In this document: one piece after another, positions 1 to 57,804 of the stretch | How positions within the stretch are numbered: the first letter of the stretch is position 1 | Layout of the letters: every line of letters begins with the position of its first letter | From: Lutibacter sp. B2 | GTDB taxonomy: Bacteria; Bacillota; Clostridia; Peptostreptococcales; Thermotaleaceae | NCBI GenBank assembly: GCA_015686845.1 | Contig: JADPRS010000010.1 | Span: 1 to 64,000 of the forward strand | Reading direction: 5' to 3' | DNA: 64,000 nt | Notes under the pieces: model-generated | The model's input: the letters and a program-made list of their open reading frames with translations, nothing else | Databases searched by the model: none | Told to the model about the DNA's origin: nothing | Made by a program: the position numbers and the translations under genes

Positions 1-56
1 GGTAGGCATATGTCCTGTGACGGTATACCGTCACAGGACATATGCCTACCTTTTTT
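1..56. terminator. Perfect 50-bp palindrome followed by a T run
   Basis: Bases 1-25 and 26-50 are exact reverse complements with no unpaired centre, and six T residues follow at 51-56. In RNA this gives a hairpin of more than 20 base pairs with a U tail, which fits an intrinsic terminator for a plus-strand gene left of the window. The palindrome starts at base 1, so its true extent is unknown. Confidence 0.6.
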
Positions 57-5839: not shown

Positions 5840-7876
5840 TTATTTGATTTTCAAATTCCCAAAACTGTTACTCCAAGAACTTACTTTATCATTTCTATCA
5901 AAATTAATACTATCGCCATCATAACTCCAACTATTTAATGATTCATATATTGTATCTGGTGTACCCATTATTTCTAATACTTCTTCTTTGGTTGTTCCTA
6001 TGGTGATCTTTTTATTTGTGTCAATTTTTTTGCCTAATTCAACTTTTAAATTTCCACAACTGTTGCTCCAAGAACTCACTTTATTACTTCTATCAAAATC
6101 AATACTATCTCCAGCATAGCTCCAACTATTTAATGATTCATATATTGTATCTGGTGTACCCATTATTTCTGATACTTCTTTTTTAGTTGTTCCTATGGTG
6201 ATCTTTTTATTTGTCTCAATTTTTTTGCCTAATTCAACTTTTAAATTTCCACAACTGTTGCTCCAAGAACTCACTTTATTACTTCTATCAAAATCAATAC
6301 TATCTCCAGCATAGCTCCAACTATTTAATGATTCATATATTGTATCTGGTGTACCCATTATTTCTGATACTTCTTCTTTAGTTGTTCCTATGGTGATTTT
6401 TTTATCTACAGTATCCCATTCTTTTTTTTCTATCATATTTTGTTTTTCAGTAGTAGTATTTTTAGTTGTATTTTCAATTGTATTATTAGTTTTTATATAA
6501 GACTTATTAGTAATATGATGAGTATTTTTTTCTGTATTGCTATTATACCAATATGTATCTAGATATTTACCATATACCCAGCCATATCCTTCATAATTAT
6601 TGCTAATTATATATACATCATACCAATCATTTATCTTACCAAGAACTATCGCTGTATCTTTTTTAGTCAGTATAGCTACTTTACTATAATTTGTTTTAGG
6701 CCCTTTACGTACATTCAATTTATCTATAGTAATAACCCCAAATAACACAACCTCATTTGAGAACTTATCAGTATAGTCTGTATACCCATTTGTGTGGGCT
6801 AAATAGTTTTGTGAAGCGTAGTTTGGAGCAGCTGTTTTATCGTTACTACTACTAATTGCAGTTTCTTGGTTATCTAAAATATTTGCATCATTAATATCCT
6901 CGTTATTTCCATAGTTGCCTATTATGATAAAAATAAAAACAACTATTATTAGAGATATAACAATAAACATCCTTTTAAAAGCATCATTATCCATGATAAA
7001 GGCTTTATTATCTATATTATTGTTTTGGTGTTTTTCATATTCATTGACATTTGAATACTGATCATTTACATCCTTTTCTGATTCCCTATCTACTTTATTG
7101 CTAGTTTGAGTATAATGATTTTTATTTAAATTAGAAAATATCATATCATCATAAATCTTATTATAACTCTCTCTTTTGCTTATATTACTTAATACATCAT
7201 AAGCTTCATTGATTTCACTCATCTTTGTATTGGCATACTCAACATTAGTAGGATTAAGATCAGGATGATATTTCTTAGCTAAAGTTTTATATGCTCTGTT
7301 AATAACTTCTGTAGATGCCTTTCTATGAACTTCGAGTATTTCATAATAATCTTTTACTGACTCTTCTTTATTGTAATCAAAGTCATTAGTATAGGAATTA
7401 GATTTTTTACTTAGATTTTCAATAATTTCTTTTATTTCATCTTTATAATCATCGGGGTTAAAAACTATATTGAACGTTTTATTATATATCCATCCTAATA
7501 TTCTTACCTTAGTAGAAATCAAGGTCTCCATCATCTTCAAGTTAAAAAATTCGTTATAATCTGCCTTAGGTATGCTTTCAAAACAATGATTGTCCCATTT
7601 TACTTTATGCTTTCTATACAGTTCACCATAACTAATTAATGTTAAATCTAAAAAAGCAGTAACTTCTAATAAATATTGTAAAAAATCTCGTTGTGTATTA
7701 ATCTCTTTAATAGACATATATATATCTTTAGCCAAGTTTTCTATTTTATCTACACTGTAAACTTTTAAAAAATCCGATGCTATATTATCATTATATACAA
7801 ACCATTTTGAAACTTGTCTTATATCTCTAATACTTTTATAATCTATATTTCTATTTAGTCCATTCCCAAAATTCAT
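5840..7876 (-). CDS. Membrane J-domain protein with SH3b domain and three C-terminal repeats
   Basis: The 678-aa protein has an unrecognised N-terminal region (1-170). A DnaJ J-domain follows (about 176-240) with the HPD motif at 204-206 that stimulates Hsp70 ATPase. A single membrane segment lies at about 302-320, then a bacterial SH3 domain (about 383-440, LNVRKGP motif), a Thr/Asn-rich linker, and three copies of a 65-residue unit from 492 to the end. Each unit has the pattern [17 protein letters not shown], which resembles the small modules found in many clostridial surface proteins. The J-domain should be cytoplasmic and the SH3b and repeats outside. Start is ATG with an AGGTGG-type ribosome site. 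DnaK recruitment at the membrane is inferred; the real role is unknown. Confidence 0.8.
5843..6403 (-). repeat. Three tandem near-identical 195-bp coding repeats
   Basis: Units run 6403-6209, 6208-6014 and 6013-5843 (the last is shorter). The first two differ at only a handful of bases. The high DNA identity points to recent duplication or gene conversion, and the array could expand or shrink by slippage in frame because 195 is a multiple of three. Confidence 0.85.
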
Positions 7877-8136: not shown

Positions 8137-9030
8137 TTATGAGCTGTACCGAGCTTCAAAAGGGGTTCTTCCTTGGTTGAAGGAATAAGGCTTAAGATGA
8201 TTGTACCAGCTATAGGCATACTCATATACAGCTCTGTTTAGCAGATTATCATTTTAAAAATTGAAAAGATATATCAGCTCATTTTTAAATGTGTTAACAT
8301 ATCTTTCCATAGGAGCATTATCGTAAGGACATTCAGCCTTACTCATACTTTGAGTGATTTGGTTATTGTAGCAAAATTGAGTAAATTCTTTAGATGTACA
8401 CTGGCTTTCTTGGTCGCTGTGTAAAATTAAACTAGTATTGGCTGGCTTATGATTTTTTAATACTAGTTTTAAGGTTTTAATGGTTAAATCAGATGTAATT
8501 TCTTTGCCATAGAGTGTTGCTATTACAGATCTGTCATAGATGTCTAAAATAGTGTAATTATAACGTTTGCTGCCATTACTTAAATGCATATAGGTAAAGT
8601 CCGTGCACCAAATTAAGTTAGGTTCCTGCACTTTAAATTCACGATTTAGTAGATTAGGAAATACCTTGTGTACAGTCCCTTTTAAATATGCTGGTTTTTT
8701 CTTCATTACTACAGATTGTAAATCTAACTCGCCATTCATGTATTTATGGACGGTAGTCTTGCTGTAGAAGAAACCTTTTCTATCAAGGAAATTTTTCACA
8801 TTACGATGTCCCAAAGTTCCGTTACTTTCATGATAAATAGATTTTATGCTATCTAGTACCTTTTGTTTTTGGGTATGATAAGAAGCCTTTCTATATCTTA
8901 GAAAGTTGTAGTAGGCATTGGGGCTGATATTGAATTTTATTAAGAGCCATCGAACTCCAAATTCTTCATGATTATTCTTGATAAATTGGTAAATCTTTAA
9001 TCTATTTCCTTTGCGAAGAATGCCGCCGCT
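8137..9030 (-). pseudogene. IS3-family transposase OrfB with one premature stop
   Basis: The frame is open from the -1 frameshift site through the rve integrase core: WCTDFTYM with the first Asp, LHSDQESQ with the second, and the region DNAPMERYVNTFKNE with the catalytic Glu. A TAA at 8256-8254 ends it after YLFNF. The same frame then continues for about 38 more codons of typical OrfB C-terminus (NHLKPYSFNQGRTP) to the natural stop at 8139-8137. All three DDE residues lie before the premature stop, but the conserved C-terminus is lost, so the transposase is probably inactive. Confidence 0.85.
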
Positions 9031-9284
9031 TTTTTTAGGAATCCATTTTCCTTTTCAAGTTCTTCTAATTGCTTACGAAGCTTTAGATTTTCCTTAAAAT
9101 AGTCGTGTTCTTCTTTCCTGGTAGGATTAGTTTTGCATTCTTCACGGTAAGATTTTACCCAGTTTGATATACTTGCTTTGTTTACTCCATATTCTTTTGC
9201 AAGGCTAGTAAGCGTTCGTCCTTCTTCCAGATGAAGACGTAGGATCTTATTTTTAAATTCTGGTTCGTATCTTCGTTTTTTCAT
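8997..9284 (-). CDS. IS3-family transposase OrfA
   Basis: The 95-aa protein has the HTH_Tnp_1 helix-turn-helix (residues 1-50, LAKEYGVNKASISNWV) and a leucine zipper (about 60-88), the usual OrfA layout for binding the element ends. Near its 3' end the gene has seven A residues followed by G (9036-9029), the heptamer used by IS3 elements for programmed -1 frameshifting into orfB. Reading in the -1 frame from there stays open into orfB, so an OrfAB fusion would be made if orfB had no stop. Confidence 0.9.
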   Translation of the reverse strand: MKKRRYEPEFKNKILRLHLEEGRTLTSLAKEYGVNKASISNWVKSYREECKTNPTRKEEHDYFKENLKLRKQLEELEKENGFLKKAAAFFAKEID

Positions 9285-11221: not shown

Positions 11222-14200
11222 CTATGATTGGATGTCTATTCTTTCTTCTTGGATTCTTCTAATGAAAGCAACGATATAACTAATATCCTCTACACCGTTA
11301 ATTGCTAGCTGTTCTTCAAGAAAGCTAATAGAACTATTAAACTCCGTTTCATCATTGCCGAATAAAGCTAAATATTGCATAACAAAACTTACAAATGCTA
11401 TTGCAATACTTAATATCTTATTAAATTCATAGGTACTCAATACTTCAGCATATGATAAAGCTGTTTTCCTATTTATATGATAAGCTCCATGAACTCTCAA
11501 AATCCTCTTAATCGTACAATTTCTTATTAGCTTTTCAAAATCAGACGAAACATCAGGATACTTTAATGCAATTATATGTAGATAGTATCTTGTTTTTCCA
11601 ACATACTTATCCAAAAACTTTATGATTTCTATCGATACAATCCTAAAATCGTCAATGGATACTTCATCTTTTATTCTTTTCAATGCACCTATATAAGCTG
11701 GAATGAAAGTCTTATAGTTAGCATTCCTTCCCATTCTTAAAAATGGCTTAACTCCTTCAAAACCATTAGTTTGATAGCTTATAAATATATCATCAGCATC
11801 AAAACTAATAAATTCAACTTTGAATTTTCTTAAATTTGCTATTGCTAAAGCAACAAGTTTCCTTGTTGATGGTTTGTTATTTTTCAAGAAATGGAATAAT
11901 GTATTAATATCAATCAAGTAGCTTGTATCAAATTGCTTTGAAGAATGAACTTCAGTATTCAAAAAAGGTACTTTTAAGTTCTCTGATAAAGCTATGCAAT
12001 CAAGTGTATCTTCTGGAAATAAGTCTAATTCTGATTTTAGTTTTACTCGTACATCGACTGGCACTTCTTTAACATTGAGAGATTTATTGATGTAATCGAG
12101 TATGGCAATTGAAGAATTTCTAGTTATACCTGATTGTCTTTGTTTAACAATTGTTATTACATTATATGGTATAAGCACTTCGTTAAATGAATCGAGTAAA
12201 GGCAATGCCCCTGCTTCCGATAATATTGCTAATGTGTTAGCATCTATTAAAATCTTATCGTTTATTTTTTCAGCCTGTTCAAATGCTTCATATACATTTC
12301 CATTAGAAATATGAACGTGAGTAAATGGATAATGATTATACATCAGCATTTCTTCTATTCCAGTTCCAACAAGCTTATTGTATACTGCCACTCCAATGAT
12401 TCCTTGATTAAAGAACCAATTTATTTGACTGATATCTCTATCACCAGTTACAGCTTTTATTTTTTTTATTAGTTCTTCTCCAGACTCATTTTCTGAGTGC
12501 TTAATAACCTTAAACCATTTAGGATTTGGGTTCTTTGCATAATATTCGCCCATATATGAAAAAGCTTCATCAGTTTTACCATTATCCATACAAAATGCAG
12601 CATAGAATTGATGAAATGGTGACTCCAAATCATCTCTAACGAAATCCTTAATATCATTTAGCTTTTCGAATGCATCAGGTAGTTTGCCTTTTTCTTTTAG
12701 GATAAATGCATAATATATGTAGTATAATTCAGGCCGTTCCAATTGCATTGGAACAGCATGTTCAAGATAAAGTTCAGCATCAAATACCGAATTACTATTC
12801 AGTTTTAATTCAACAGCCTTTATTAAATCATTATGATTATCATTTACCTTAAATAGTTCAAAATATGCTTTTGCAGTTTTGTCTAAATCTCCTTTAAAGG
12901 TATAATAGTTTACTTCTAAAATAGCTTTGTTTATTGGCGATAATGTATTTAAATCAGTTGATTCATATTGACTGAAGAATTTCTCATATTGTTCTGTCTT
13001 TAGGTAATACATTAATTTGTTGTAAATTACAAATGGCATTTGTAATTCGATTATTTCATACTTCCTTGAATCAACATTATCGAAAAACTCGTTGAGTTCA
13101 TCAAACAAGTCGTTCTCTAGGAGTAGTTGAAGCAAATCGTACAAAACTAGTGAATTTTCGGCTACCTGTTTGAATTTACTTATTTCTTCAATTAGTTTTT
13201 CTTTCTCACCTTGCTTATCAATGTACTGAATGTAATTCATCCATAACACTTCATCTTTGTTATTTCTAGTGTACTTCTTGTAATAATGGATGTATCTATC
13301 AAATTGATTATCTTCCTTTAAAGCATTGAGTAACGAAAGTTGTAATACTTTGTCTTCTGGATAGTTGTTCTCTATCTCTACAATCAGCAGTTCAATTTCT
13401 GATTCATAATCTTTCTTTATCTCGAAATAGAAAGACTTATATTTGACTTTCTCATAATCATTCAAATGAGAAAATGTTTCTTCGTTATAAATCCCATTAA
13501 GAACTTCAGCTTCAACAACAGGCCTTAAAATATCTAGTTTGGTCAAATTAACATAATCTTTTGACTCATCCCTAATCTCAAGTATTCTTTTATGCTTATT
13601 TGTAACTGCAAGTATATTGAATAAGAATGGAAATACCATTATCGCTATTGTAGGTAAAGTATCTTTATTGCTATCAGTATATACTGCTTCAAGCTTTTCT
13701 CGCGCCCTATCAAGCTGGCTAAAGTCAATATTATCAAGAGTAGTTGTACCATCCTCTTTCATTGACTTCATTGATTCAAAATATTCACATGCAGCAATAC
13801 CAATCTCTTTAGTAAGATTTTTACTAAACCTATTAGATTCGATGTAGTTCTCTTTGGCTAAACTAAAATCTTGATAATTAAAAGCAACATCACCTAAGTT
13901 AGTATAGATAATTGCTTTTTCTTTAATTCCAAGTCCTTCTCGTTTTAACAACTCATTTAACTGTATTTTTGCTTCTTCATATGCAATTACTTTGTGAGTA
14001 GCCTTCAATAAAACACTACCAGCCAAAGCATTTATATAATCTGTTTTTTTACTAATTGCTTTATCGCTAAGAATTATGGCTTTTTCAAGTTCTCTTCTCT
14101 TATAGAACCAGATAGATAATAAAAAATAATAACGGTGAATTTCTTTAACATCATCACCTAAAGCATCAATCTTTGTTAACCATCTATTTATAGTTTCTTC

Positions 14201-14581
14201 TTCAGCATCAATATTTATAAAGCAATTAAGTAGTCCATTGTAAATAAGGAATTTTTCATCCTTTAAATACTTAGAAAAATCATCCGACTTTATTAAGTTC
14301 TCATATTCACTGATAGCAACATAAGGCTTACCATCAGCAATTAGCTTTTCAATCGGAAGTATTTTTTCTTTGAAAGATACAGATGAATCTTTATCTAACA
14401 AAGTCTCGTAAAGTTTTTTAAAATGCTTAGAATCATCAATGTGGAAATGGTACTCATCAATCTCCATATGATTAGCAATTTTGTTGTCTCTAGCATCAAC
14501 ATTGCCATATTTACTGCTTGGATTGAATAAAACTTTACTATTTTGTATTAATCCTTGTAGTAAGTCACCAAATTTACTCAC
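11222..14581 (-). CDS. Large TPR-repeat protein with a C-terminal PIN-like nuclease domain
   Basis: The 1119-aa protein starts at a GTG behind a strong GGGGAGGT site. Residues about 1-50 hold a short variable leader with GNVDARDN. Residues about 55-760 are helical and match tetratricopeptide spacing in several places (for example near 150-270). From about 775 a PIN-like domain can be read: KILIDANT with Asp780, then FPEDTLDCIALSENL with acidic residues at 857, 858 and 861, and VPFLNTE, the order of a PIN metal site. About 200 helical residues follow. The design recalls the TPR-PIN proteins of predicted bacterial conflict systems (the TPR-GreAB-C-PIN type), where the repeats sense a partner and the PIN cleaves RNA. 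It follows a small membrane protein gene by 19 bases, so the two probably work together. Confidence 0.7.
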   Translation of the reverse strand: MSKFGDLLQGLIQNSKVLFNPSSKYGNVDARDNKIANHMEIDEYHFHIDDSKHFKKLYETLLDKDSSVSFKEKILPIEKLIADGKPYVAISEYENLIKSDDFSKYLKDEKFLIYNGLLNCFINIDAEEETINRWLTKIDALGDDVKEIHRYYFLLSIWFYKRRELEKAIILSDKAISKKTDYINALAGSVLLKATHKVIAYEEAKIQLNELLKREGLGIKEKAIIYTNLGDVAFNYQDFSLAKENYIESNRFSKNLTKEIGIAACEYFESMKSMKEDGTTTLDNIDFSQLDRAREKLEAVYTDSNKDTLPTIAIMVFPFLFNILAVTNKHKRILEIRDESKDYVNLTKLDILRPVVEAEVLNGIYNEETFSHLNDYEKVKYKSFYFEIKKDYESEIELLIVEIENNYPEDKVLQLSLLNALKEDNQFDRYIHYYKKYTRNNKDEVLWMNYIQYIDKQGEKEKLIEEISKFKQVAENSLVLYDLLQLLLENDLFDELNEFFDNVDSRKYEIIELQMPFVIYNKLMYYLKTEQYEKFFSQYESTDLNTLSPINKAILEVNYYTFKGDLDKTAKAYFELFKVNDNHNDLIKAVELKLNSNSVFDAELYLEHAVPMQLERPELYYIYYAFILKEKGKLPDAFEKLNDIKDFVRDDLESPFHQFYAAFCMDNGKTDEAFSYMGEYYAKNPNPKWFKVIKHSENESGEELIKKIKAVTGDRDISQINWFFNQGIIGVAVYNKLVGTGIEEMLMYNHYPFTHVHISNGNVYEAFEQAEKINDKILIDANTLAILSEAGALPLLDSFNEVLIPYNVITIVKQRQSGITRNSSIAILDYINKSLNVKEVPVDVRVKLKSELDLFPEDTLDCIALSENLKVPFLNTEVHSSKQFDTSYLIDINTLFHFLKNNKPSTRKLVALAIANLRKFKVEFISFDADDIFISYQTNGFEGVKPFLRMGRNANYKTFIPAYIGALKRIKDEVSIDDFRIVSIEIIKFLDKYVGKTRYYLHIIALKYPDVSSDFEKLIRNCTIKRILRVHGAYHINRKTALSYAEVLSTYEFNKILSIAIAFVSFVMQYLALFGNDETEFNSSISFLEEQLAINGVEDISYIVAFIRRIQEERIDIQS

Positions 14582-15428: not shown

Positions 15429-15602
15429 TTAAAGTACTTCTCCTTTATTATCTTTTTCAAGTTTTTCTATTAGTCTATCCATATTTTTAGCTGACACATT
15501 CTTAAATAGTATTTTGGCCAAAGCTTTCGCTGCACGTATATTATATTCCTCCATCTTTTCTTGAGTAGGTTCATGCACAATTACTTTTGAGATCTTACTC
15601 AT
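15429..15602 (-). CDS. Small 57-aa protein divergent from the recombinase
   Basis: This short frame starts at ATG 15602 behind a strong GAGGAGG site and ends at TAA 15429. The protein (beginning MSKISKVIVHEP) has a short strand followed by an amphipathic helix with several Lys and Glu, and no membrane segment. It faces the serine recombinase gene across a 152-bp spacer that must carry both promoters. Small basic proteins next to large serine recombinases are sometimes recombination directionality factors or repressors, and this is a candidate for either. I do not recognise the family. Confidence 0.65.
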   Translation of the reverse strand: MSKISKVIVHEPTQEKMEEYNIRAAKALAKILFKNVSAKNMDRLIEKLEKDNKGEVL

Positions 15603-15754: not shown

Positions 15755-17359
15755 ATGAAAGCTGCAATCTACAGCAGAAAAAGTAAGTTTACGGGCAAAG
15801 GTGATTCTGTTGAAAACCAAGTACAGATGTGTAAAGAATATGGTAAAATGCATGGTATTACATGCGACTATATAGTATATGAAGATGAAGGCTTTTCAGG
15901 TAGCACTACGAATAGACCTAAGTTTCAAGAAATGATTCATGATGCTATGTCAAAAAAATTTGACGTACTCATATGCTATAGATTAGATCGTATAAGTAGG
16001 AACATTGCAGACTTTGCTCGTTTGATTGAGGAACTTCAAGAATATAGCATTGATTTTATAAGTATTCGCGAACAATTTGATACTTCTACTCCTATGGGAA
16101 GAGCCATGATGAATATTGCCGCCGTATTCGCCCAGTTAGAGAGGGAGACCATCGCCGAAAGGATACGAGATAATATGTTAGAACTTGCAAAGTCTGGTCA
16201 TTGGCTTGGCGGACAAGTACCTCTAGGATATAATAGTAAAAAAATCACTTATTTAGATGCAGAATACAAACAAAGAAGTATGTATCAATTATCCCCTATA
16301 AAAGAAGAGCTAGAGACTACAAAATTGATTTTTGATAAATACCTAGAAACCAAATCTTTATCACAAGTAAGCAAATATCTATTATCCAATAATATTAAAG
16401 GTAAAAATGGAGGAGACTTTGGTAAAAAAAGCATTAATAGTATTTTAACTAATCCTGTATATGTAAAAGCTAACCATGAAGTTTTCTCTTATCTTCAAGA
16501 TTTAGGAATAAGTACAGCTGGTAAGCCAAATGTCAAGCATGGAATCCTTACCTATAATAAAAGTCAAAAAGGAAAAAAGACCGATTACACTCAGTGGATC
16601 GCAGCAATAGGGAAACATGAAGGAATAATTAATCCCAATGATTGGCTTTTCGTACAAGAAACACTCAAAACAAATAAAGCAAAAGCTCCTCGCATGGGAA
16701 CCTCCCACACTGCCCTTCTCACGGGTATATTAAAATGTGCAAAGTGTGGAAGTGGTATGCGTGTTACATATGGTAATAAAAATAAAGAAACTGGAAATAG
16801 AGCCTATTATTATACCTGTAGTTTAAAAAATAATTCTGGGCAAACAAGATGTGCTAATAAAAATATCCGTGGAGATCAATTAGAACTGATGGTCATTAAA
16901 AAATTAAAAGCTTTTAATAGAGATACATTGCTTAAGGAATTAAAAGACCTTCAAAAGAAAAATAATCAATTTAACACGACTGCACATGAAATAGAATCTA
17001 TAAAAAATCAAATGGACGCCAAAAAGGTAGCCATTCAGAGTTTAGTAACTCAAGTATCCCAAAACAAAGAAAGTATTGCATCAAACTATTTTATTCAAGA
17101 AATTGAAAGATTAGATAAGGAATGCAAACAATTACAACAGAAACTTGAAGTAAAGAAAAATACGAAAGACGTAAAGGATGAAGAAAATATAAATATTGAT
17201 TTAATCATTCGTTCATTGGAAGATTTTAATGCCTTATTTGATACTTTAGAAAATATTAATGATAAAAGGTATCTCATTAGTTGTTTAGTTGATAAAATCA
17301 CATGGGATGGATCTAATGGTGATGTGGACGTATATTTGTGGGGGTGTAAAAAAAAATGA
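15755..17359 (+). CDS. Large serine recombinase
   Basis: The 534-aa protein has the resolvase/invertase catalytic domain (1-150) with the nucleophile Ser in YSRKS, the conserved YRLDRISRN and an LERETIAERI helix. It is followed by a recombinase domain (about 170-290), a zinc ribbon (CAKCGSGM near 325 with a second Cys pair, YTCSL and TRCANK, about 30 residues on), and a coiled coil (about 400-475). This is the full layout of enzymes that integrate and excise elements at att sites, including the skin recombinase SpoIVCA. It begins behind AAGGAGTG and stops about 55 bases before the junction with the chromosome. It is the likely enzyme for this element, acting at the interrupted flavoprotein gene. 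Confidence 0.95.
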   Translation: MKAAIYSRKSKFTGKGDSVENQVQMCKEYGKMHGITCDYIVYEDEGFSGSTTNRPKFQEMIHDAMSKKFDVLICYRLDRISRNIADFARLIEELQEYSIDFISIREQFDTSTPMGRAMMNIAAVFAQLERETIAERIRDNMLELAKSGHWLGGQVPLGYNSKKITYLDAEYKQRSMYQLSPIKEELETTKLIFDKYLETKSLSQVSKYLLSNNIKGKNGGDFGKKSINSILTNPVYVKANHEVFSYLQDLGISTAGKPNVKHGILTYNKSQKGKKTDYTQWIAAIGKHEGIINPNDWLFVQETLKTNKAKAPRMGTSHTALLTGILKCAKCGSGMRVTYGNKNKETGNRAYYYTCSLKNNSGQTRCANKNIRGDQLELMVIKKLKAFNRDTLLKELKDLQKKNNQFNTTAHEIESIKNQMDAKKVAIQSLVTQVSQNKESIASNYFIQEIERLDKECKQLQQKLEVKKNTKDVKDEENINIDLIIRSLEDFNALFDTLENINDKRYLISCLVDKITWDGSNGDVDVYLWGCKKK

Positions 17360-17380
17360 AGCCATATTTTCCACAAAACC

Positions 17381-17422
17381 CCAAATTGTCGCAATTTGGT
17401 GGTACGTACATCTGTATGCCCT
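17381..17422. other. Putative attachment junction (attR-like)
   Basis: Between the recombinase stop and the flavoprotein sequence lies an inverted repeat, CCAAATTG (17381-17388) and CAATTTGG (17392-17399), then GTACGTAC (17402-17409). The flavoprotein reading loses sense after Gly-His-Thr at 17421-17413. The crossover core should be within about 17407-17422. The partner site is outside the window, so the exact core cannot be set. Confidence 0.5.
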
Positions 17423-18408
17423 ACAAATAGTCCTGACTTCTCTCCTGCACATAAAAGATTATCTACCCCTTCAACCTTCATAGTATTGTCTCTAGGCGCA
17501 ATAGATAGATATCTAATAGAATTTCCTATTCCGCCTGAATATGGATCTTCATATCTAGCATTTTCTAACCCTTTAAATTTTCTCAACTTTTCTAACGGAT
17601 AAAAAGGTGCCATTAATTTAGCATGCCCTGTATCTAGTAATATTAAATTCTCCGCATACTCTTTTAGCGCATATTGTTGACAAACCTTCATATCAAGCTT
17701 CTTTAAATTAACTTGATCTTTTGGAACGGGTAGTATGACTACACCTTTTGTATTTAATTCATCAACAATTTCTTTACTTAATGAGTCTTTATTAAGTTTA
17801 CAAGACCCACTAAAAGCTCCATGAGATCCATCTTTTCTCTTTCCTACTATATCTTCTACACCAGCTTTTTTGCTAATGCTTATTCTTGGACCAAATGAAG
17901 GACATCTTAGTATACACATAGAGCATCCATTTCCATATTTCAAACAATTCCCCATAGGTCCCGTTGATCCTGTAGTTTCAATAAATACATCTCCTGAAAT
18001 TACATTTCCATCTTGTAAAACTATTTCTTTTATCGTTTTTCCCTCTTTTATAACATCTACTGCTCTAGATCTAAACAATACGTTTATATTCATCTCTTCT
18101 AATAATCTTCTTGTCATTGGTTCCACTTTACATACATCATATAAGCTTGCATGCGTATGCCCTGGAAAATCAATATTGACATGCCTTGATGCTTTATCAG
18201 TTATATTAAATAATTCTTTTGCTCCTAATAATATACTTTCCTCTGTAGCAGTATACCTTCCATTATTTCTCATAATACCGCCAACGTTACCAAGTCCTAC
18301 TAATATATCCATTCTTTCAATAATGGTTACATTCGCACCTGCTTTTTTAGCAGTTATTGCAGCTGCAACGCCTGCCCATCCTCCTCCGATTACTATTACT
18401 TTAGTCAT
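17413..18408 (-). pseudogene. FAD-dependent oxidoreductase, 5' part (gene interrupted by the element)
   Basis: Codons 1-332 encode a flavoprotein: a GGGWAG dinucleotide-binding motif at the N-terminus (FAD_oxidored type), a glycine-rich NVGGIMRNNGR segment, a Cys cluster (NGCSMCILRCPSFGPR) and a late FAD motif (LLCAGEKSGLFVGHT). Such proteins normally continue with a C-terminal helix bundle that closes the FAD site. Here the frame runs instead into element DNA and continues for about 105 meaningless residues over the recombinase 3' end. The gene overlaps the upstream electron-transfer gene by ATGA, so the two are coupled. The missing part should lie left of the element. Excision would restore the gene. 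Its substrate is unknown. Confidence 0.85.
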
Positions 18409-19373
18409 TTAACATCCTCCTTCCCTAATATTTGACCTGATTGTATTTGTGTTTTACACATTTTCACTTCATCTCCATTTGCAGTCTTACAGATACAAGA
18501 ACCACAAATTCCTTCTCCGCAACATATGGTATTATTATTAGTAATAACAAACTTTGTTTTCATATTATTTTTTTTAACCTCTTTGTATACAACTCTATGA
18601 AAATTATCTGAGCCCGCACTATATGCCAAACTAAAATTCTTATTTTTTATGATATTCCTAAATTTTTCCATGTCGTTTTCCTGCTTTAAGTTTAATATAT
18701 TTATGTCTACATCATATTCTTTGATATAGTCTTTAATAAAAACAATATCTACTTTCCCTGGATCAATTATAAATGTAACTTTATTATTATTTTTCAACAA
18801 ATATTTTAGTGTTAAAGCTGCAGGTGCCATTCCTAGACCTCTCGCAACAACCATTACTTCTTCATTGCTAGTATTTTTTAACTGTTTCAATCCAATTAGA
18901 CCATTCCAATAGGGTCCTCTTAGTAAAATATCTTCACTTACTTCAATCAATGACTTAGTTTTCGATCCAACAACACGTAAAGCTATATCGATTTCACTTT
19001 TATCTTCATCCACATTCATAATTGACATAGGTGCATCGAAAAAAGTTGGTTTGTCTACTTCTCTAACAAAAACATACGAACCTGGATGTTTTAACTGTCT
19101 AGCTAATGTTCTGTTTACTTTTATTTTTAAAATAGCTAGATCTTCTTTGATCATCTTTTTTTGTACAATCTTTGCATTACATTCTTCTCTTGTATTTCTT
19201 TTCTTATTTCCACACCAAAAAAATTCTTGATATATACATACACCACTCCAATCACACTCGCATGCACTTTTACCTTGAAGATGGCTACATATAATACATT
19301 CATTACATTCTGCCAAATAACAAGGACAGTATTCACTTCCAGCATCTATACATTGCAATCTCTTATCTACCAA
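18405..19373 (-). CDS. Ferredoxin-reductase-like electron transfer protein with Cys-rich N-terminus
   Basis: The 322-aa protein starts at a TTG behind a G-rich ribosome site. Residues 1-65 contain eleven Cys and do not match a domain I know. Residues about 70-320 resemble the PyrK/ferredoxin-NADP reductase fold: a flavin-binding part, an NAD-binding part (MVVARGLGMAPAALTLK) and a Cys-rich end (NNTICCGEGICGSCIC, then MCKT) that fits a 2Fe-2S site. It probably passes electrons between NAD(P)H and the flavoprotein encoded by the next gene, with which it overlaps by four bases. The pair follows sporulation genes, so a role in spore formation is possible but unproven. Confidence 0.75.
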   Translation of the reverse strand: MVDKRLQCIDAGSEYCPCYLAECNECIICSHLQGKSACECDWSGVCIYQEFFWCGNKKRNTREECNAKIVQKKMIKEDLAILKIKVNRTLARQLKHPGSYVFVREVDKPTFFDAPMSIMNVDEDKSEIDIALRVVGSKTKSLIEVSEDILLRGPYWNGLIGLKQLKNTSNEEVMVVARGLGMAPAALTLKYLLKNNNKVTFIIDPGKVDIVFIKDYIKEYDVDINILNLKQENDMEKFRNIIKNKNFSLAYSAGSDNFHRVVYKEVKKNNMKTKFVITNNNTICCGEGICGSCICKTANGDEVKMCKTQIQSGQILGKEDVK

Positions 19374-19400
19374 TATTCTTCCCCCCTACATTTCTAAAAT

Positions 19401-19436
19401 AAAAAAATACCCTATAAATATAGGATATTTTTTTAT
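19401..19436. terminator. Terminator after the dacB-like gene
   Basis: A-rich and T-rich arms around CCTATA and TATAGG (core about 19411-19424) form a hairpin with a T run on the minus strand. It separates the carboxypeptidase gene from the redox pair. Confidence 0.7.
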
Positions 19437-19467
19437 TTTAAAATGTGTTACTCAAATTGCTTATTTT

Positions 19468-20592
19468 CTACTTCTTAAATATTTTATTTTTAATAAAGTC
19501 CCATACTTTATCTTCAAAATCTTTTTCATAAATATCTTCTCGTGCATTCAGCTCTCCTTTATACATTAGATCGTCATCTATATATACCTTGAAATAGCCT
19601 AGTTTTGTTCCTCTAGCTATAGGTGCGTCTAAAACTTTATCCATATCTACTATTACTTTGAGTTTGTTTTTTTCACTAGGTTTCATAGGAATAATTATAT
19701 CTTCGGGACTCACTACTTTAGTATAAGTTTTTTTACCATTTTGTATTTTAACCGTTTTTATTACAGTACCTTTCTTAACAATACAATGAGCTTCATACTC
19801 TGAAAATGCATAATCTAACAAAGAATATGAGTCATTAAACCAATTAGGATCATTTAATACGACACATATTAGCTGCATTCCATCTCTTGTTGCTGATGTT
19901 ACTAAACATCTGCCTGCAGCCCTAGTATATCCTGTTTTAACTCCATCTCCACCTTCATATTGTGTTAATGTTTTATTTTTATTATAAAAATATTTATATC
20001 CCTCTCTATTTGCAATCCATAATTTAGTTTTTACAATTTCACTAAATTTCTTATTTAATAATGCTTCTCTAGTTATTAATGCTAAATCATATGCTGTCGT
20101 ATAATGGTTTTTATGATGTAAACCATTAGGATTCATAAAATGTGTATTTACTGCTCCAATTTCCTTAGCCTTTTTATTCATTAAATCAATAAATTTCTCT
20201 ACTGAACCTCCTACATGAGATGCAATAGCTACTGCTGAATCATTACCCGATCTTAACATAAGCCCATAAATCAAGTCTTTCATTAAAACCTTCTCATTAT
20301 GTTGGAGATATATAGATGATCCTTCAACACCGACTGCCTTGTTATCAATTTTTATATATTTATTTATATCACCATTTTCTAAAGCTAATAAAGCAGTCAT
20401 TATCTTTGTAGTACTTGCCATAGCCATACTCTGTTTTATATTTTTTTCATATAATATCTTTCCAGTTTTTACTTCCATCACAATTGCACTACTAGCAGAA
20501 TTATTATAACTATTTCCATACGATAAATTTGTATTGCACAAGAAAAAAAACACTAGTACCAGTGTATATATTTTTATATTTTTGCCTCTCAA
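19468..20592 (-). CDS. dacB: D-alanyl-D-alanine carboxypeptidase (DacB-like)
   Basis: This is a peptidase S11 penicillin-binding protein that trims the terminal D-Ala from peptidoglycan stem peptides outside the membrane. It has a signal peptide (hydrophobic LVLVFFFLC), the serine motif STTK, SGN in LRSGNDS and KTG in GVKTGYT. A C-terminal beta domain follows. I chose the TTG at 20592 because GGAG lies eight bases upstream; an earlier in-frame GTG overlaps that site. The scpA-scpB-gerW-dacB order matches the Bacillus region where DacB acts on the spore cortex, so the symbol rests on position as well as family. Confidence 0.85.
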   Translation of the reverse strand: MRGKNIKIYTLVLVFFFLCNTNLSYGNSYNNSASSAIVMEVKTGKILYEKNIKQSMAMASTTKIMTALLALENGDINKYIKIDNKAVGVEGSSIYLQHNEKVLMKDLIYGLMLRSGNDSAVAIASHVGGSVEKFIDLMNKKAKEIGAVNTHFMNPNGLHHKNHYTTAYDLALITREALLNKKFSEIVKTKLWIANREGYKYFYNKNKTLTQYEGGDGVKTGYTRAAGRCLVTSATRDGMQLICVVLNDPNWFNDSYSLLDYAFSEYEAHCIVKKGTVIKTVKIQNGKKTYTKVVSPEDIIIPMKPSEKNKLKVIVDMDKVLDAPIARGTKLGYFKVYIDDDLMYKGELNAREDIYEKDFEDKVWDFIKNKIFKK

Positions 20593-20693
20593 TGTAATCA
20601 CTCCATTTGTTATAGTAGTAATATTATGACCTAATGAAAGGAAAAAAATACAATTCTTTTATTCATTTTTTAGTTTTTTATATCCTGCATAAT

Positions 20694-20734
20694 AGAAGAG
20701 TAAGGAGATACTACTATAATCTCCTTACTCTTCT
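20694..20734 (-). terminator. Terminator of gerW
   Basis: A perfect 16-bp stem (20694-20709 with 20719-20734) with a 9-base loop overlaps the gerW stop codon and closes the scpA-gerW unit. Confidence 0.75.
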
Positions 20735-21138
20735 ATATTTTTATCTTCTTTAGGTGATTTTTTATCACTCATGTTCTTAATTTTGTCTAATAATTTTGGC
20801 ATAAAATCGATAACACTGTCTAACATACTTGCATTTTGGTCAACTGGTAATAATTTCATTCCCTCTTTTCCTACAACCATAAAAGCTACAGGTTGTACTG
20901 ATACTCCTGCTCCGGTACCTCCTCCAAAGGGCAACTTTGTGCTTTCATCATTGGGGTTCCTTTTTGCACAATATTCCCCTCCTCCAGAAGCAAAACCAAA
21001 AGACACTTTTGATATAGGAATAATGATCGTCCCATCAGATGTTTCTACCGGATCTCCTACGATTGTATTTACGTCTATCATATCTTTTAAACTTTGCATG
21101 GTTGTTTTCATCAAAGCTTCTATAGGGTGTTCAGACAT
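20725..21138 (-). CDS. ytfJ: Sporulation protein YtfJ (GerW family)
   Basis: The 137-aa protein has the family's typical start MSEHPIEALM, the core GDPVETSDGTIIIPISKVSF, a glycine-rich GGGTGAGVSVQP and a C-terminal tail of charged residues. YtfJ/GerW is made in the forespore in Bacillus and is needed for proper germination through GerA-type receptors. I chose ATG 21138 because AGGTGG lies just upstream and the family starts there; an in-frame upstream ATG would add a tail that overlaps the preceding gene. It lies 5 bases from the DUF2953 gene and is its usual partner. Confidence 0.92.
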   Translation of the reverse strand: MSEHPIEALMKTTMQSLKDMIDVNTIVGDPVETSDGTIIIPISKVSFGFASGGGEYCAKRNPNDESTKLPFGGGTGAGVSVQPVAFMVVGKEGMKLLPVDQNASMLDSVIDFMPKLLDKIKNMSDKKSPKEDKNIEE

Positions 21139-21143
21139 AACAT

Positions 21144-21746
21144 TCACCACCTTTTTCTTAGGAATATATATCCAAATTTTATTGCTGTAATAATAATATA
21201 TCCTATTTTTATACTTATTATACAATTCAACTCACTTTTAAATTCTTTCTTTCTATAATTGGGCATTACATTTATAATAATATCTTTACTTTTAATATTA
21301 TTTCTAATAAAAATATCAACATTAGACTTAAGCATCCATATAAATCCTGTAACTATGGCAGTTTCTGATGCCATTTCTGTTCCAATTTCTGTTTGCCACT
21401 TACAGTACTTTAAAAACATTTTATTTTTTATATATTCAATAATATTGTAATATTTATAGAACTTTTCTTTTAAATCTATTAATTCTTCTATTGTAATCCA
21501 TTTTTTATCGTATCCTCCTTTTTCTTCTTTCGTTTTCAATTTCAAATATGGCATTTTGCTATCTTCCACTTTTAAATCGATCCTAGGAATATCTATTTTG
21601 TATTCATATATTTTAAATATTATTAGAATTTCAAAATCAACTTTAGCTGTTTTTTCATCTTTAAAAATATTTATTTTTAAGATCATGGGAACAAAAAATA
21701 TGCTACACATCATAATACCTATTAACCAGAATATTAGTTCTCTCAA
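21144..21746 (-). CDS. DUF2953 membrane protein (YtfI-like)
   Basis: The roughly 200-aa protein has one N-terminal membrane segment (LIFWLIGIMMCSIFF) and a soluble part with charged strands, as in the DUF2953 family encoded next to ytfJ. The TTG at 21746 (frame LRELIFW) follows a good AGAGGTG site, so I prefer it to the ATG 42 bases upstream. The gene is placed directly before gerW and likely forms one unit with it. The family is linked to spores only by this neighbourhood; its role is not known. Confidence 0.75.
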   Translation of the reverse strand: MRELIFWLIGIMMCSIFFVPMILKINIFKDEKTAKVDFEILIIFKIYEYKIDIPRIDLKVEDSKMPYLKLKTKEEKGGYDKKWITIEELIDLKEKFYKYYNIIEYIKNKMFLKYCKWQTEIGTEMASETAIVTGFIWMLKSNVDIFIRNNIKSKDIIINVMPNYRKKEFKSELNCIISIKIGYIIITAIKFGYIFLRKRW

Positions 21747-21827
21747 AAAATCACCTCTTAATAAATGTATGTAGTATATTTTTTCCAAATTTTAAAATAA
21801 ATACACATTTTTTTAGTGGAAATAAAA

Positions 21828-21851
21828 AAAACCTATGTTATCATAGGTTTT
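21828..21851 (-). terminator. Terminator of scpB
   Basis: AAAACCTATG (21828-21837) pairs with CATAGGTTTT (21842-21851) ten bases past the scpB stop codon, with a T-rich minus-strand flank. Confidence 0.75.
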
Positions 21852-21861
21852 AATTTCATCT

Positions 21862-22395
21862 TTATAGTTCAACTATATCATCAAAAAATTCATTAATTTC
21901 AGGTAAACTATTTAAGTTGTTTAATCCAAAAGATTTCAAAAAAATATCTGTAGTACCATATAATATAGGTCTCCCAATTCTCTCTAAACGTCCTGTCTCT
22001 TCTATTAATTCTTTTTCTATTAGTGTGGTAATTGCTTTATCACACTTTACGCCTCGAATCGATTCAATTTCTGGCCTAGTAATAGGTTGCTTATAAGCTA
22101 TAATTACTAAAACCTCTAATGCTGCTTGTGTTAATCCCTTATTTTGTGGTGGCGTACATAATTTTTGTAAATATTCAAAGTGATTCTGATTTGTACTAAA
22201 TTGAAAACTATTATTTATTTCTATGATTTGCATACCTCTATCTTCTTTTTCATATTCTGTTTTTAAATCTAATAAGCATTTTCTTACAAATTCAGATGAA
22301 AGATTTAATGCATTTGCAATATTCTTTACATTCAAAGGTTCTCCCCATATGAATAAAAACGATTCAATAATTGATTTCACTTCTTTTTCTTTCAT
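21862..22395 (-). CDS. scpB: Segregation and condensation protein B
   Basis: ScpB dimerises through winged-helix domains and joins ScpA and SMC in the bacterial condensin that organises and segregates the chromosome. The 177-aa protein shows the family features ESFLFIWGEPL at the start and TQAALEVLVIIAYKQPITRPEIESIRGV in the middle. I chose the ATG at 22395, five codons into the longest frame, because the GAGGTG site fits it. It follows scpA by under 20 bases, the usual operon pair. Confidence 0.95.
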   Translation of the reverse strand: MKEKEVKSIIESFLFIWGEPLNVKNIANALNLSSEFVRKCLLDLKTEYEKEDRGMQIIEINNSFQFSTNQNHFEYLQKLCTPPQNKGLTQAALEVLVIIAYKQPITRPEIESIRGVKCDKAITTLIEKELIEETGRLERIGRPILYGTTDIFLKSFGLNNLNSLPEINEFFDDIVEL

Positions 22396-22413
22396 TTTCC
22401 TACACCTCATTAA

Positions 22414-23148
22414 TTATACTAACCTATTCAAGAAAATACGTCCAAACACATTCGTTTGTTGAACTTTTATAAATTTTAATTTCATTAATTCTAATATTGC
22501 AAGGAAAGTTACTACAATTTCACTTTTTGAAAAAGATTGACTAAATAATTCTTCAAATTCTAATGAACTCTCTTCATATAAACGTTTTTTAATATGCTCA
22601 ATTCTATTTTCTATAGTAATTTCCTCTCTTTTTATTTCATTAACATAAACTGGAGATTCATTTACTTTTTTTCTTTTTTTTAATAATTTTTTAAAAGCAT
22701 TTAGTAAAATTCCCATATCTATATCTATAATATTATTTTTATCATATTTTACAAATTGATCTAATTGTGCTTGTTGTTTATAAAAGATTTTTTTGTTGCT
22801 ATTTTCCCTTTCTTTAAATTCTAGTGCAACTTGTTTATATTTTTTATATTCTAAAAGTTTAGATACTAACTCTTGCCTTGGATCTTCCTCTAAATCAATT
22901 GCCAATTGTTTTTCTTGTTTATCAGGCAGCAACATTTTTGATTTTATTTCCATCAAAGTTGCCGCCATTATTATAAATTCACTTGTAACTTCTAAATCGA
23001 ATTTTTTCATATTTTTTATATAATCAATATATTGTTGTGCAATATTTGCAATAGGAATATCATAAATATCTACTTTAGATTTTTCAATCAAATGAAATAA
23101 TAAATCAAAAGGGCCTTCAAAGGTTTCAAGTTTTACATTATATAACAT
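22414..23148 (-). CDS. scpA: Segregation and condensation protein A
   Basis: ScpA is the kleisin that bridges the SMC heads. The protein begins with VKLETFEGPFDLLFHLIEKS, the family signature, and ends with a winged-helix region (IVVTFLAILELMKLKFIKVQQ) that contacts the other head. I chose ATG 23148, with AGGTG six bases upstream, over a GTG nine bases earlier. It opens the scpA-scpB unit after the dacF terminator. Confidence 0.95.
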   Translation of the reverse strand: MLYNVKLETFEGPFDLLFHLIEKSKVDIYDIPIANIAQQYIDYIKNMKKFDLEVTSEFIIMAATLMEIKSKMLLPDKQEKQLAIDLEEDPRQELVSKLLEYKKYKQVALEFKERENSNKKIFYKQQAQLDQFVKYDKNNIIDIDMGILLNAFKKLLKKRKKVNESPVYVNEIKREEITIENRIEHIKKRLYEESSLEFEELFSQSFSKSEIVVTFLAILELMKLKFIKVQQTNVFGRIFLNRLV

Positions 23149-23277
23149 ATAATTCACCTACCAACATTGACATGTTCAAAAAATACTTCCTTCCTTCAAT
23201 AACTAATTTTTTTTTTATATTTAAGAGATTTTATAATTATATCATAATAATATTACTTGTTGTTATTTAACAAATAT

Positions 23278-23315
23278 AAAAGTAGTACATATATCTACTT
23301 ATATGTACTACTTTT
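23278..23315 (-). terminator. Terminator of dacF
   Basis: A long stem, AAAAGTAGTACATAT with its complement, around a short loop lies just past the dacF stop codon at 23323. Confidence 0.75.
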
Positions 23316-23322
23316 ATATTTA

Positions 23323-24492
23323 CTATAGTATATTTGTAATAATTTTATTAAATATATTTAAAACAGAAGCTGCCTTTATTTCTTTTTCTGTAACAATATC
23401 TATCTTTCCTACCTCTTTACCATCTTTAGTTATTGCAATATATCCTACTTTCTTTCCTGCTATAAAAGGAGCTTTTATATTTTTTTGTAGAACAATTTCT
23501 TTATGAACTGTATTTTCTTCTCCTTTTTTTACGATTGTACTTAAATCATTTTTCGCTATTACATTTATTTTTGCTTCTTTTCCTTTTTCTACAAATAATT
23601 CATCAATAATTTGATTTTTCTTTGCAATAGAAACTATACTATAATTAGAAAATCCATAATTTAATAGTTTCTTCGCCTCAGCAAATCTTATTTTAGAAGT
23701 AGGACTTCCTAAAATAACCGCAATTAATGTAAATCCATTCTTTTTAGCAGAAGCAGACAAACAATACTTTGCATCACAGGTAAATCCCGTCTTGATTCCA
23801 TTTGCACCTGGATATGTTTTTATTAGTTTATTTGTATTTGTCATTCCAAGTGTTGTTTGTTTTTTATTCGGTAATCCTACGCTCATAGTAGACATCCAAA
23901 TGGTTAGCCATTTGTGTATTTTAGGATGTTTCAGTAATTCTCTCGACATCAGTGCAATATCATATGCACTTGTATAATGTCCTTCTGCTGGTAATCCATT
24001 TGTATTCATAAATTGAGTATCTTTCATTCCTAATTGCTGCGCTCTTTCATTCATACGTTTTACAAATAATTCTTCTGTTCCACTTAGATGTTCTGATATA
24101 GCAACACAAGCATCATTTGCAGATGATACTGCAATTCCTTTTAATAATTGTTCTATTGTTTTTTCTTCACCAGGTTCTAAATAAAGTTGACTTCCACCCA
24201 TGCTTGAAGCTCTATCACTAATAAGTACTTTATCCTCTAATGCAACAGTTCCATTGTCTATAGCTTCTATTACTAAAAGCATAGTCATTATTTTAGTCAC
24301 ACTTGCTGGTGGGAGTTTATCATGTATATTTTTTTCATATATAATTTTCCCACTAGTACCATCTACCAAAATAGCTGTTCTAGCATCTACATCAAATTCT
24401 TCTGAATTAGAATAAGATATTGTTATACTATTTACAAATATCATAGTAAGACACAAACAAAACGCCATAATTTTACTACATTTTAATTTCAC
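23323..24492 (-). CDS. dacF: D-alanyl-D-alanine carboxypeptidase DacF
   Basis: The 389-aa peptidase S11 enzyme has a signal peptide, SVTK at 64-67, SAN in VSSANDA, KTG in GIKTGFT, and the C-terminal beta domain. In Bacillus DacF is made in the forespore and lowers cortex cross-linking. The deoB-punA-dacF order is the Bacillus order, although the spoIIA operon that follows there is replaced here by scpAB. Translation starts at GTG 24492 behind a strong AAGGAGG site that can be masked by its own leader. It shares its family but not close identity with the dacB-like gene at 19468. Confidence 0.92.
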   Translation of the reverse strand: MKLKCSKIMAFCLCLTMIFVNSITISYSNSEEFDVDARTAILVDGTSGKIIYEKNIHDKLPPASVTKIMTMLLVIEAIDNGTVALEDKVLISDRASSMGGSQLYLEPGEEKTIEQLLKGIAVSSANDACVAISEHLSGTEELFVKRMNERAQQLGMKDTQFMNTNGLPAEGHYTSAYDIALMSRELLKHPKIHKWLTIWMSTMSVGLPNKKQTTLGMTNTNKLIKTYPGANGIKTGFTCDAKYCLSASAKKNGFTLIAVILGSPTSKIRFAEAKKLLNYGFSNYSIVSIAKKNQIIDELFVEKGKEAKINVIAKNDLSTIVKKGEENTVHKEIVLQKNIKAPFIAGKKVGYIAITKDGKEVGKIDIVTEKEIKAASVLNIFNKIITNIL

Positions 24493-51180: not shown

Positions 51181-52074
51181 TTAGTTAAAAACTCTATCTA
51201 TATCAATATACCAATCTTTATCCATTTTCACTTTTCCTAAAGCAATAAACTCATCTTTTAAATATACTCTTACTACAGTGTCTGTTATTAAATTTTTTTC
51301 ATCTATTATGTTTTTAGGATAGAGATTATTCCCATTTCTTAAATATTTTTCTGAAGCTTCTTTTACATCTATTCTTAACAGCTCTCCAAGTGGATAGTCT
51401 ATGGGAAACAAATAATTTTCTTTAATTTTTTCATGAGATTCCTTTTGTAATTCTTCAATGGTTACTGTTTCTTCTAATTCAAATCTTCCACTTTTTATTC
51501 TTAATAGAAAAGACATATATGCTCCACAACCTAATTTATTCCCTATGTCTTCACATAAGGTTCTAACATATGTACCTTTTGAGCATAAAACATCAAAGAG
51601 TATTTGATTATCATTTATAGTTAAAATATCAATATGATGAATATATACTTTTCTAGATTTTCGCTCAACGACTTCACCTGCTCGAGCTAATTCATATAAT
51701 TTTTTACCCTTATGCCTAACTGCCGAATACATAGGAGGCGTTTGATTTATTTCTCCTACAAAGGATTGTATCGCGTCTATAATTTCTTCCTTTGTAACAT
51801 TTATTTTACGCTCATTTATGACTTTTCCCCATTTATCTTGTGTGTCTGTATTCTTACCTAAAGTCATTTCACATCTATATTTCTTTTTATCATTTAACAG
51901 ATATTGACTAACTTTTGTTGCTTCTCCAATACAAATAGGTAAAACGCCTGAAGCCATAGGATCTAGCGTTCCTGTATGTCCAACTTTTTTCATATTCAAA
52001 CATTTTCGAATAAAGCCTACAACATCATGAGAAGTCATATGGGGAGGTTTTAAAACATTAATAATTCCATTCAA
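51181..52074 (-). CDS. truB: tRNA pseudouridine(55) synthase
   Basis: TruB makes the pseudouridine in the T-loop of tRNAs and also acts as a tRNA chaperone. The 297-aa protein has the catalytic Asp in GHTGTLDPMASGVLP, the TPPMYSAVRHKGKKLYELAR stretch, the RTLCEDIG motif and a C-terminal PUA-like end. It starts at TTG 52074 behind AGGTG. It is followed at once by ribF. Confidence 0.97.
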   Translation of the reverse strand: MNGIINVLKPPHMTSHDVVGFIRKCLNMKKVGHTGTLDPMASGVLPICIGEATKVSQYLLNDKKKYRCEMTLGKNTDTQDKWGKVINERKINVTKEEIIDAIQSFVGEINQTPPMYSAVRHKGKKLYELARAGEVVERKSRKVYIHHIDILTINDNQILFDVLCSKGTYVRTLCEDIGNKLGCGAYMSFLLRIKSGRFELEETVTIEELQKESHEKIKENYLFPIDYPLGELLRIDVKEASEKYLRNGNNLYPKNIIDEKNLITDTVVRVYLKDEFIALGKVKMDKDWYIDIDRVFN

Positions 52075-52082
52075 TTTATCAC

Positions 52083-53048: not shown

Positions 53049-53403
53049 TTTCAGTACCTGGTTTATTAACCTTGTGAATCAAATCTGAGATATACATAGC
53101 ATTTTCAATAGAATTATCTAATTTAAAAACAGGTTCAGGCGTACATCTTAGTTTTATTTTCTTTCCAATTTCTTTTCTCACAAAGCCAGTAGAATTGGCA
53201 AGTGCTTTAAGCGTCTGATCCTTGTCTTTTTGACTCCCGTACACACTGATAAAAATATTTGCAAAGCTTAAATCTCTTGTTACCTCCACTTCTACAACAC
53301 TTGTGAGTGGCGATATTCTAGGATCCTTAAGTTCATTCATTATCATACTACTAACTATTTTTTTTATTTCTGTACCTATTCTATTCGTTCTTGGATACGC
53401 CAT
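53035..53403 (-). CDS. rbfA: Ribosome-binding factor A
   Basis: RbfA helps mature the 5' end of 16S rRNA and binds the small subunit, notably in the cold. The roughly 122-aa protein starts with RTNRIGTEIKKIVSS and shows the KH-like core KDPRISPLTSVVEVEVTRD. I chose ATG 53403, with AAGGTG nearby, giving the family start MAYPR. It follows infB by about 25 bases. Confidence 0.96.
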   Translation of the reverse strand: MAYPRTNRIGTEIKKIVSSMIMNELKDPRISPLTSVVEVEVTRDLSFANIFISVYGSQKDKDQTLKALANSTGFVRKEIGKKIKLRCTPEPVFKLDNSIENAMYISDLIHKVNKPGTENEQK

Positions 53404-53427
53404 TCTAAAAATCACCTTTCTTCATAT

Positions 53428-55440: not shown

Positions 55441-55443
55441 TGT

Positions 55444-56041: not shown

Positions 56042-56063
56042 AAATTCACTACCTCCTATTCAC

Positions 56064-57116: not shown

Positions 57117-57134
57117 AACAATACACCCCCTAAC

Positions 57135-57599: not shown

Positions 57600-57717
57600 T
57601 TTTATACCTCCTCTTTGATTAATATTGTAATTGTGAACAAATATTAAATAATCATTCTACCTTTATTTTTATAAAAATATTTACATATTATTCTTTTTAA
57701 AATTATAGCATAATAGC

Positions 57718-57744
57718 AAAGAGTGGGTCTTTTCCCCACTCTTT
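57718..57744 (-). terminator. Terminator of polC
   Basis: AAAGAGTGGG (57718-57727) pairs with CCCACTCTTT (57735-57744) around a 7-base loop, about 60 bases past the polC stop codon. Confidence 0.75.
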
Positions 57745-57804
57745 CCATTAGATCATATATGTCTATCCTCAAAAGTATATCATATAAAAAAAACTTGTGC
57801 AAGT

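Follow-up and report, generated by a model that had tools for sequence, protein, structure and literature searches.

A flavoprotein gene that is conserved in spore-forming anaerobes and has sporulation genes for neighbours is divided, in Lutibacter sp. B2, by an element that carries a large serine recombinase, and this element is probably a skin-type intervening element, whose programmed excision in the mother cell would act on a new target, the flavoprotein gene. The locus lies in the 64,000-nucleotide stretch of DNA that we analysed (the window), which is the start of contig C48. Since joining the pieces restores the gene here and in 13 relatives, it is probably reassembled by DNA excision in spore formation. 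An earlier note on the window had proposed a skin-type element and had named three outcomes that would speak against it, namely a C-terminal half absent from the genome, a broken joined frame, or relatives with a truncated gene and no element; as described below, the half was found, the joined frame was open and the relatives had either the whole gene or the element. These results support the skin-type reading, and we infer that excision is specific to the mother cell.

The divided gene encodes a GidA/MnmG-like flavoprotein, and its 5' half (codons 1-332) occupies positions 17413-18408 on the minus strand. The open frame that contains it (17095-18408) begins as an FAD-binding oxidoreductase, follows the flavoprotein through codon 332 (GLFVGHT) and changes character there, continuing in element DNA, just as the earlier note had described; intact relatives are about 94 residues longer than this truncation. 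Overlapping the flavoprotein start is a partner gene with a TTG start (18405-19373, minus strand) for an FAD/NAD-binding protein that resembles sulfide or dihydroorotate dehydrogenases and scores above the cut-off of NF004470 / PRK05802 (381 vs 313 bits); a relative was found at 50 of the loci scanned. Upstream of the partner come a carboxypeptidase-like gene, gerW (spore_ytfJ; 20725-21225, minus strand), scpB, scpA and a second carboxypeptidase-like gene. The sporulation-linked neighbourhood previously read from these genes held for gerW (TIGR02874) and scpB, both above cut-off, and for scpA the best model was below its cut-off; the neighbours called dacB- and dacF-like are two D-Ala-D-Ala carboxypeptidase-like genes that fall below the cut-offs of the models so named.

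We sought the C-terminal half in the same genome, with the C-terminal 101 residues from an intact relative as the query, and found such halves in five places on contig C73 and in one at the start of contig C9. The first 50 bp of the window (1-50) form a perfect palindrome that a genome-wide check located at the starts of C48 and C73 only. Because a single-copy perfect palindrome gives exactly such an assembly break, the two contigs presumably adjoin head to head through it, an arrangement that brings the gene halves into correct order and orientation. The intervening element would then comprise about 17.4 kb on C48 (1-17412 in the window) and a further 17.9 kb on C73, up to where the first C half begins. 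There, behind a right attachment site matching attL, C73 holds the final 94 codons, the remainder that had been predicted to lie beyond the element.

The attL crossover core is GA (17411-17412, minus strand), in the context ...CATACA-GA-TGTACGTACCACCAAATTGC, with the adjoining element arm (CCACCAAATTGC...) at about 17380-17400; attR reads GCAATTTGGTGGGGGGGCCT-GA-AGCTATAG, and its arm, GCAATTTGGTGG, is the inverted repeat of the attL arm. Joining the halves at the common GA core yields a 426-residue frame free of stops and of internal gaps, and the joined protein is identical to the intact protein of the relative G010 at 366 of 426 residues. The join chosen was the top-scoring one among all joins sharing at least two bases near the two ends, the next-best being only 3 points lower in G008, G009, G131 and G480 and 3 to 6 lower in several genomes. 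Two tandem elements of G007 have between them an undivided site, GCAATTTGGTGGGGGGGCCT-GA-TGCACATGCTACCAAAGTG, which we read as a natural attP since it matches the site predicted from attL and attR. Common cores with inverted element arms are present at the attachment sites, the arms being imperfect by eye in G131, G182 and G480; at the insertion site called C below, inverted arms were not evident by eye.

The five C halves on C73, at 17888, 23855, 36033, 51655 and 57622 (the contig end cuts the last of them), each stand behind the same attR-like sequence and are all in the same frame. They belong to right-end modules in tandem, faced by the single 5' half and made up of an XRE regulator, attR, the C-terminal half and a shared trailer, between which lies metabolic or helicase cargo: a helicase, a fatty acid transporter, an octopine-dehydrogenase-like enzyme, an enolase-superfamily enzyme and an M20 peptidase. 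The second C-half copy is followed by remnants of a recombinase and of a small ORF. Region 51559-57852 duplicates 17792-24085 to 99.95%, perhaps as an artefact of assembly; the end of C73 falls inside a repeat, and its adjacency to C9 is putative. G007 has a simpler tandem form, with the attP between its elements. That the recombinase joins the 5' half to any of the attR sites on C73, with alternative 3' ends and stepwise cassette loss in an integron-like use of a sporulation element, is a speculative extension that we hold doubtful.

The interruption recurs in other genomes. Matches to the N half were found in 15 of the 16 genomes of the window's family, and a strong match to the gene (about 1e-80 or better) in 119 of 297 genomes of an order sample, some of the 119 being fragments at contig ends. 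Thirteen of the 119 have a split gene for which we located both halves and saw element DNA at the break point; in every one of the 13 the best join gives 426-430 residues that are free of internal gaps. One more genome, G480, came from a class sample of 341 genomes, of which 35 have the gene; its copy is split over about 80 kb, and the join works. All 14 genomes in which more than a contig break separates the halves thus regain an ungapped full-length frame on joining, which makes chance an unlikely explanation. By the labels of the genome sample these 14 represent 8 genera and 4 families, and they are interrupted at one of three sites: codon 332-333 (site A: the window's genome, G000, with G006, G007, G008, G009, G131, G182, G127, G194 and G480), codon 85-86 (site B: G134 and G235) or codon 290-294 (site C: G102, an uncultured Alkaliphilus, and G017, A. 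transvaalensis ATCC 700919); G008 and G009 are Marinisporobacter MAGs. The intact copies that had been suggested as a check are present in relatives (e.g. G010), and in relatives the gene is either intact or split with an element present, a comparison in which contig-end truncations were set aside and copies with in-frame stops (G033, G124 and G249) stood outside.

Several candidate carriers were rejected. G227 and G217, in each of which both pieces run to contig ends, with overlaps of about 13 and 30 bases, were set aside as assembly breaks, as was G292; by its coordinates G014 is another and G045 probably so, their pieces beginning at contig starts. The second fragment of G119, where an IS256-like frame is visible by eye, was dropped from the split set. 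G585 has an insertion near codon about 265 with a recombinase and a small ORF nearby, and it was left out of the counts, its 3' half not being found among the five candidates scored per genome; the breaks of G227 and G217 lie near the codon of this insertion, a coincidence to which we attach no meaning.

As a control we examined mnmG, a gene of related fold for which we know of no sporulation role, across 80 of the 119 genomes, among them all 13 with a split flavoprotein gene: it was full length in 77, absent from 2 and cut by a contig end in 1, and none of the 80 gene-bearing genomes checked had an interrupted copy. Among the 13 split genomes and G010, sigK, the classical target, was in two pieces in 9 of 14 (G006, G007, G009, G010, G127, G134, G194, G235 and G102; pieces about 2 to 44 kb apart), indicating that the approach recovers the known phenomenon. 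In the window's own genome, sigK (C24:10615-11247) stops at ...GISRSY and is followed by what is by eye a ParA-like frame, and it may be interrupted. Separately, the spoIVA gene of G077 appears to be in pieces about 109 kb apart (residues 1-404 at C28:132942-134153 and 400-492 at C28:23887-24165), and that of G010 (C1:1291918-1293394) appears split, with several stops in its 3' part; spoIVA is possibly a further interrupted sporulation gene in these two genomes.

A large serine recombinase had been reported next to the break, and the ORF at 15755-17359 (plus strand, 534 aa, convergent with the split gene) indeed has Resolvase, Recombinase and zinc-ribbon domains; it is below the cut-off of the SCC cassette recombinase CcrB model (171 vs 900 bits). 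The recombinase adjoins attL in 12 of the 13 split genomes and is internal in G009; G480 has it on the attR side. Divergent from the window's recombinase is a 57-aa ORF (15429-15602, minus strand), a candidate recombination directionality factor. Relatives of this ORF sit beside the recombinase in all five carriers of family f1 (the window's, G006, G007 with two, G008 and G009), and weaker relatives lie 2.5-3 kb from it in G134 and G127 and about 2 kb from it in G480; in 6 of 13 genomes (G131, G182, G194, G235, G102 and G017) the fetched stretches contained none. The element of G006, 1,988 bp long, consists of the recombinase and one 60-aa ORF only, and the XRE gene near attR, absent from it, was dropped as a directionality factor. 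A PHROGs search with the small ORF gave weak matches only (best E 0.03), and no promoter class could be assigned upstream of it. The ORF is our proposed directionality factor for the f1 elements.

The remaining contents vary. In the window the cargo includes a UvrD-like helicase with PD-(D/E)XK nuclease and HTH domains (2095-5043), a protein with DnaJ and SH3 domains (5840-7876) and a 1,119-aa protein with a weak TPR match (11222-14581), all on the minus strand. Within the DnaJ-domain gene, units of about 195 bp are directly repeated (5849-6405), and two similar stretches of the element with transposase genes lie at 8254-9284 and 1198-1881, the second shortened. Where one stretch spans both ends, elements measure 12.2 kb (G009), 21.2 kb (G102), 25.0 kb (G182), 30.5 kb (G131), 35.3 kb (G127), 38.7 kb (G007) and 51.2 kb (G134), besides the 2-kb form of G006. 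Cargo scans covered chosen ORFs, four each of G131, G127 and G134, six of G007 and ten of C73. Three of the four in G127 encode terminase, portal and head proteins; those of G131 matched two helicases, one helicase loader and one methyltransferase; and those of G134 and G007 comprised helicases, regulators, an ABC ATPase, a dynamin-like protein and others, with no phage structural domains in the four and six ORFs scanned. A recU-like ORF, recognised by eye, is inside the element near attR in G008 and G009, and in G006 and G007 it is found downstream of the C half.

The recombinase tree groups its members by target site and not by genome, with full support for sites B and C and 61/82 for site A, whose rows include a C. 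difficile plasmid recombinase. The sigK-element recombinases of the same genomes form separate clades from those at the flavoprotein gene, in a comparison that had the published SpoIVCA and CD1231 outside it. Eight of the nine two-piece sigK loci were fetched (all but G102), and seven contain relatives of the window's recombinase, in two unlike clades; G134 contains none. We also noted a C. difficile circular record of 23,987 bp (NZ_CP149734.1) with pdu/eut microcompartment genes and a recombinase 48.6% identical to the window's, next to a small ORF that matches the G006 ORF weakly (E 0.23); the record resembles an excised circle built along similar lines.

Synonymous divergence in genus g5 was about equal for recombinase and host gene (dS 0.66 vs 0.70 for G006-G008, 0.78 vs 0.75 for G006-G009 and 0.45 vs 0.34 for G008-G009; 0.46 vs 0.57, 0.69 vs 0.48 and 0.64 vs 0.52 for the inner G007 recombinase), and as we read it the recombinases branch in the order that host dS suggests. 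The recombinases of G000 and the outer G007 element are much closer (dS 0.53) than their hosts (1.19), which points to horizontal transfer. It seems, then, that one insertion is old and has been retained, and that others are mobile. The pN/pS of the N half was 0.06-0.17 in the ten pairs of the five f1 carriers, 0.08-0.20 in three further split-gene pairs and 0.05-0.19 in six intact pairs, against C-half values of 0.16-0.33, 0.19-0.26 and 0.06-0.28. C halves are thus under weaker constraint than N halves, and those of carriers tend to lie above most intact pairs and far below 1, several of the dS values being high; by these ratios, both halves of the gene are under purifying selection in carriers.

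These patterns weigh on a parasitic account, in which the gene is merely a good attB that elements reach frequently and carriers tolerate a dead gene. Such an account would suit the several recombinase lineages that target the gene, including that of G127, whose element carries phage head genes, the different sites used by members of genera g73 and g103, the presence in g103 of long-open-frame members as well (G202 and G241), and the one clear horizontal transfer (G000/G007). It fits poorly with the g5 divergence and the selection on both halves, with the count of broken joined frames (0 of 14) and with the 2-kb element of G006, which retains just the recombinase and the small ORF; we consider it unlikely.

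The skin-type reading also ties excision to sporulation. The gene and spoIVA were both present in 115 of the 297 genomes, the gene alone in 4, spoIVA alone in 20 and neither in 158, an agreement of 273/297 (phi 0.84, Fisher p 3e-55, with no correction for phylogeny; the 135 genomes counted as having spoIVA include the partial G278 and exclude G187, at 7.6e-4). Given the 20 genomes with spoIVA and without the gene, and the 4 with the reverse, the gene is not required for all sporulation. The region upstream of the gene pair (19374-19460, minus strand) contains a sigmaK-like motif, AACA-N16-NATANNNTA. Its general form, [AC]AC[AC]-N14-16-NATANNNTA, occurs upstream of the partner gene at 32 of 39 distinct loci vs 1.9% of Markov resamples, loci that are related to one another and do not amount to 39 independent tests. 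The sigmaK consensus is AC...CATANNNTA, and the first -10 base of the motif is mostly A where the consensus has C. In the window's family an inverted repeat with T after it overlaps the -10-like part and resembles the terminator of the upstream gene, so that the motif is weak evidence and may not be a promoter.

Excision might instead be real and independent of sporulation, driven by phage induction, stress or random switching that would leave mixed populations. The phage head and packaging genes on the G127 element, the weakness of the promoter evidence and the report, in the portion of PMC10747680 available to us, that yin circles are present at all time points would agree with this; the tracking of spoIVA by the gene, the sporulation genes beside it and the sigmaK-like motif upstream run against it, and we regard it as improbable.

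For an intact relative, the modelled structure (mean pLDDT 83.6) has MnmG/GidA as its closest PDB fold (best E 4.5e-17). The protein scores far below the cut-offs of the MnmG and TrmFO NCBIfam models (34.8 vs 524.85 and 33.6 vs 428.65 bits), and we rejected either tRNA-modifying enzyme as its identity, only the fold being common. The model places codon 333 close to where a predicted helix (331-349) begins, within a conserved stretch, and a product cut there would lack that helix and the last 94 residues. That the halves are made separately and function as a two-piece protein without DNA joining would agree with open frames under selection in both, but the cut passes through this conserved stretch near the helix start and the exact core match would be pointless, and we give that idea almost no weight.

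Excision itself, when and in which cell type it takes place, the function of the small ORF and the cooperation of the two enzymes are our inferences. On the skin-type reading, a large serine recombinase would have integrated the element at codon 333 of a conserved sporulation flavoprotein gene. In the mother cell, the recombinase would act with a small directionality factor, for which the 57-aa ORF is the likeliest candidate, to join attL to attR, releasing the element as a circle and restoring the 426-residue FAD enzyme, which would work with the reductase encoded upstream; the forespore would retain the element, which would thus be inherited.

This design has parallels. As in the sigK skin elements (SpoIVCA/Skr in B. 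subtilis; CD1231/CD1234 in C. difficile), the serine recombinase lies beside the 5' half, and inverted-repeat att sites go with a small directionality factor, here a candidate (PMC5025042, in part). Skr is given as 64 aa (PMC6957869, in part) and CD1234 as 53 aa (PMC10747680, in part). Unlike in those elements, the target here is a flavoprotein gene and not a sigma factor. The gin element in gerE of B. cereus is described, in the part of PMC5595907 consulted, as a non-prophage element with three serine recombinases that is excised in sporulation by GirC and GirX; the element here likewise has two further serine recombinases, on C73, but differs in target gene and cargo. Element loss also restores a sporulation gene for yin in yabG (C. 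botulinum), vfbin in spoVFB, SPbeta in spsM and phi3T in kamA (extracts of PMC10747680, PMC6957869 and PMC4191935). The yin element has been called unique to one strain, whereas the flavoprotein gene is hit in 14 genomes at three sites. The open-access literature that we searched, with subscription papers outside its scope, did not yield the flavoprotein gene as an excision target, nor do the portions covered of PMC5595907, PMC6957869, PMC7438776, PMC10747680 and PMC5025042 name it as one.

Programmed excision in sporulation is known, from the partial texts cited here, for a handful of target genes. A gene split at three sites by several recombinase lineages offers a natural comparative system for the domestication of mobile elements, with elements that range from a 2-kb form of a recombinase plus one ORF to a form with phage head genes, and G006 provides a minimal pair of recombinase and candidate directionality factor. 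If true, the skin-type reading would also highlight an unstudied pair of FAD enzymes as a component of sporulation in many Clostridia.
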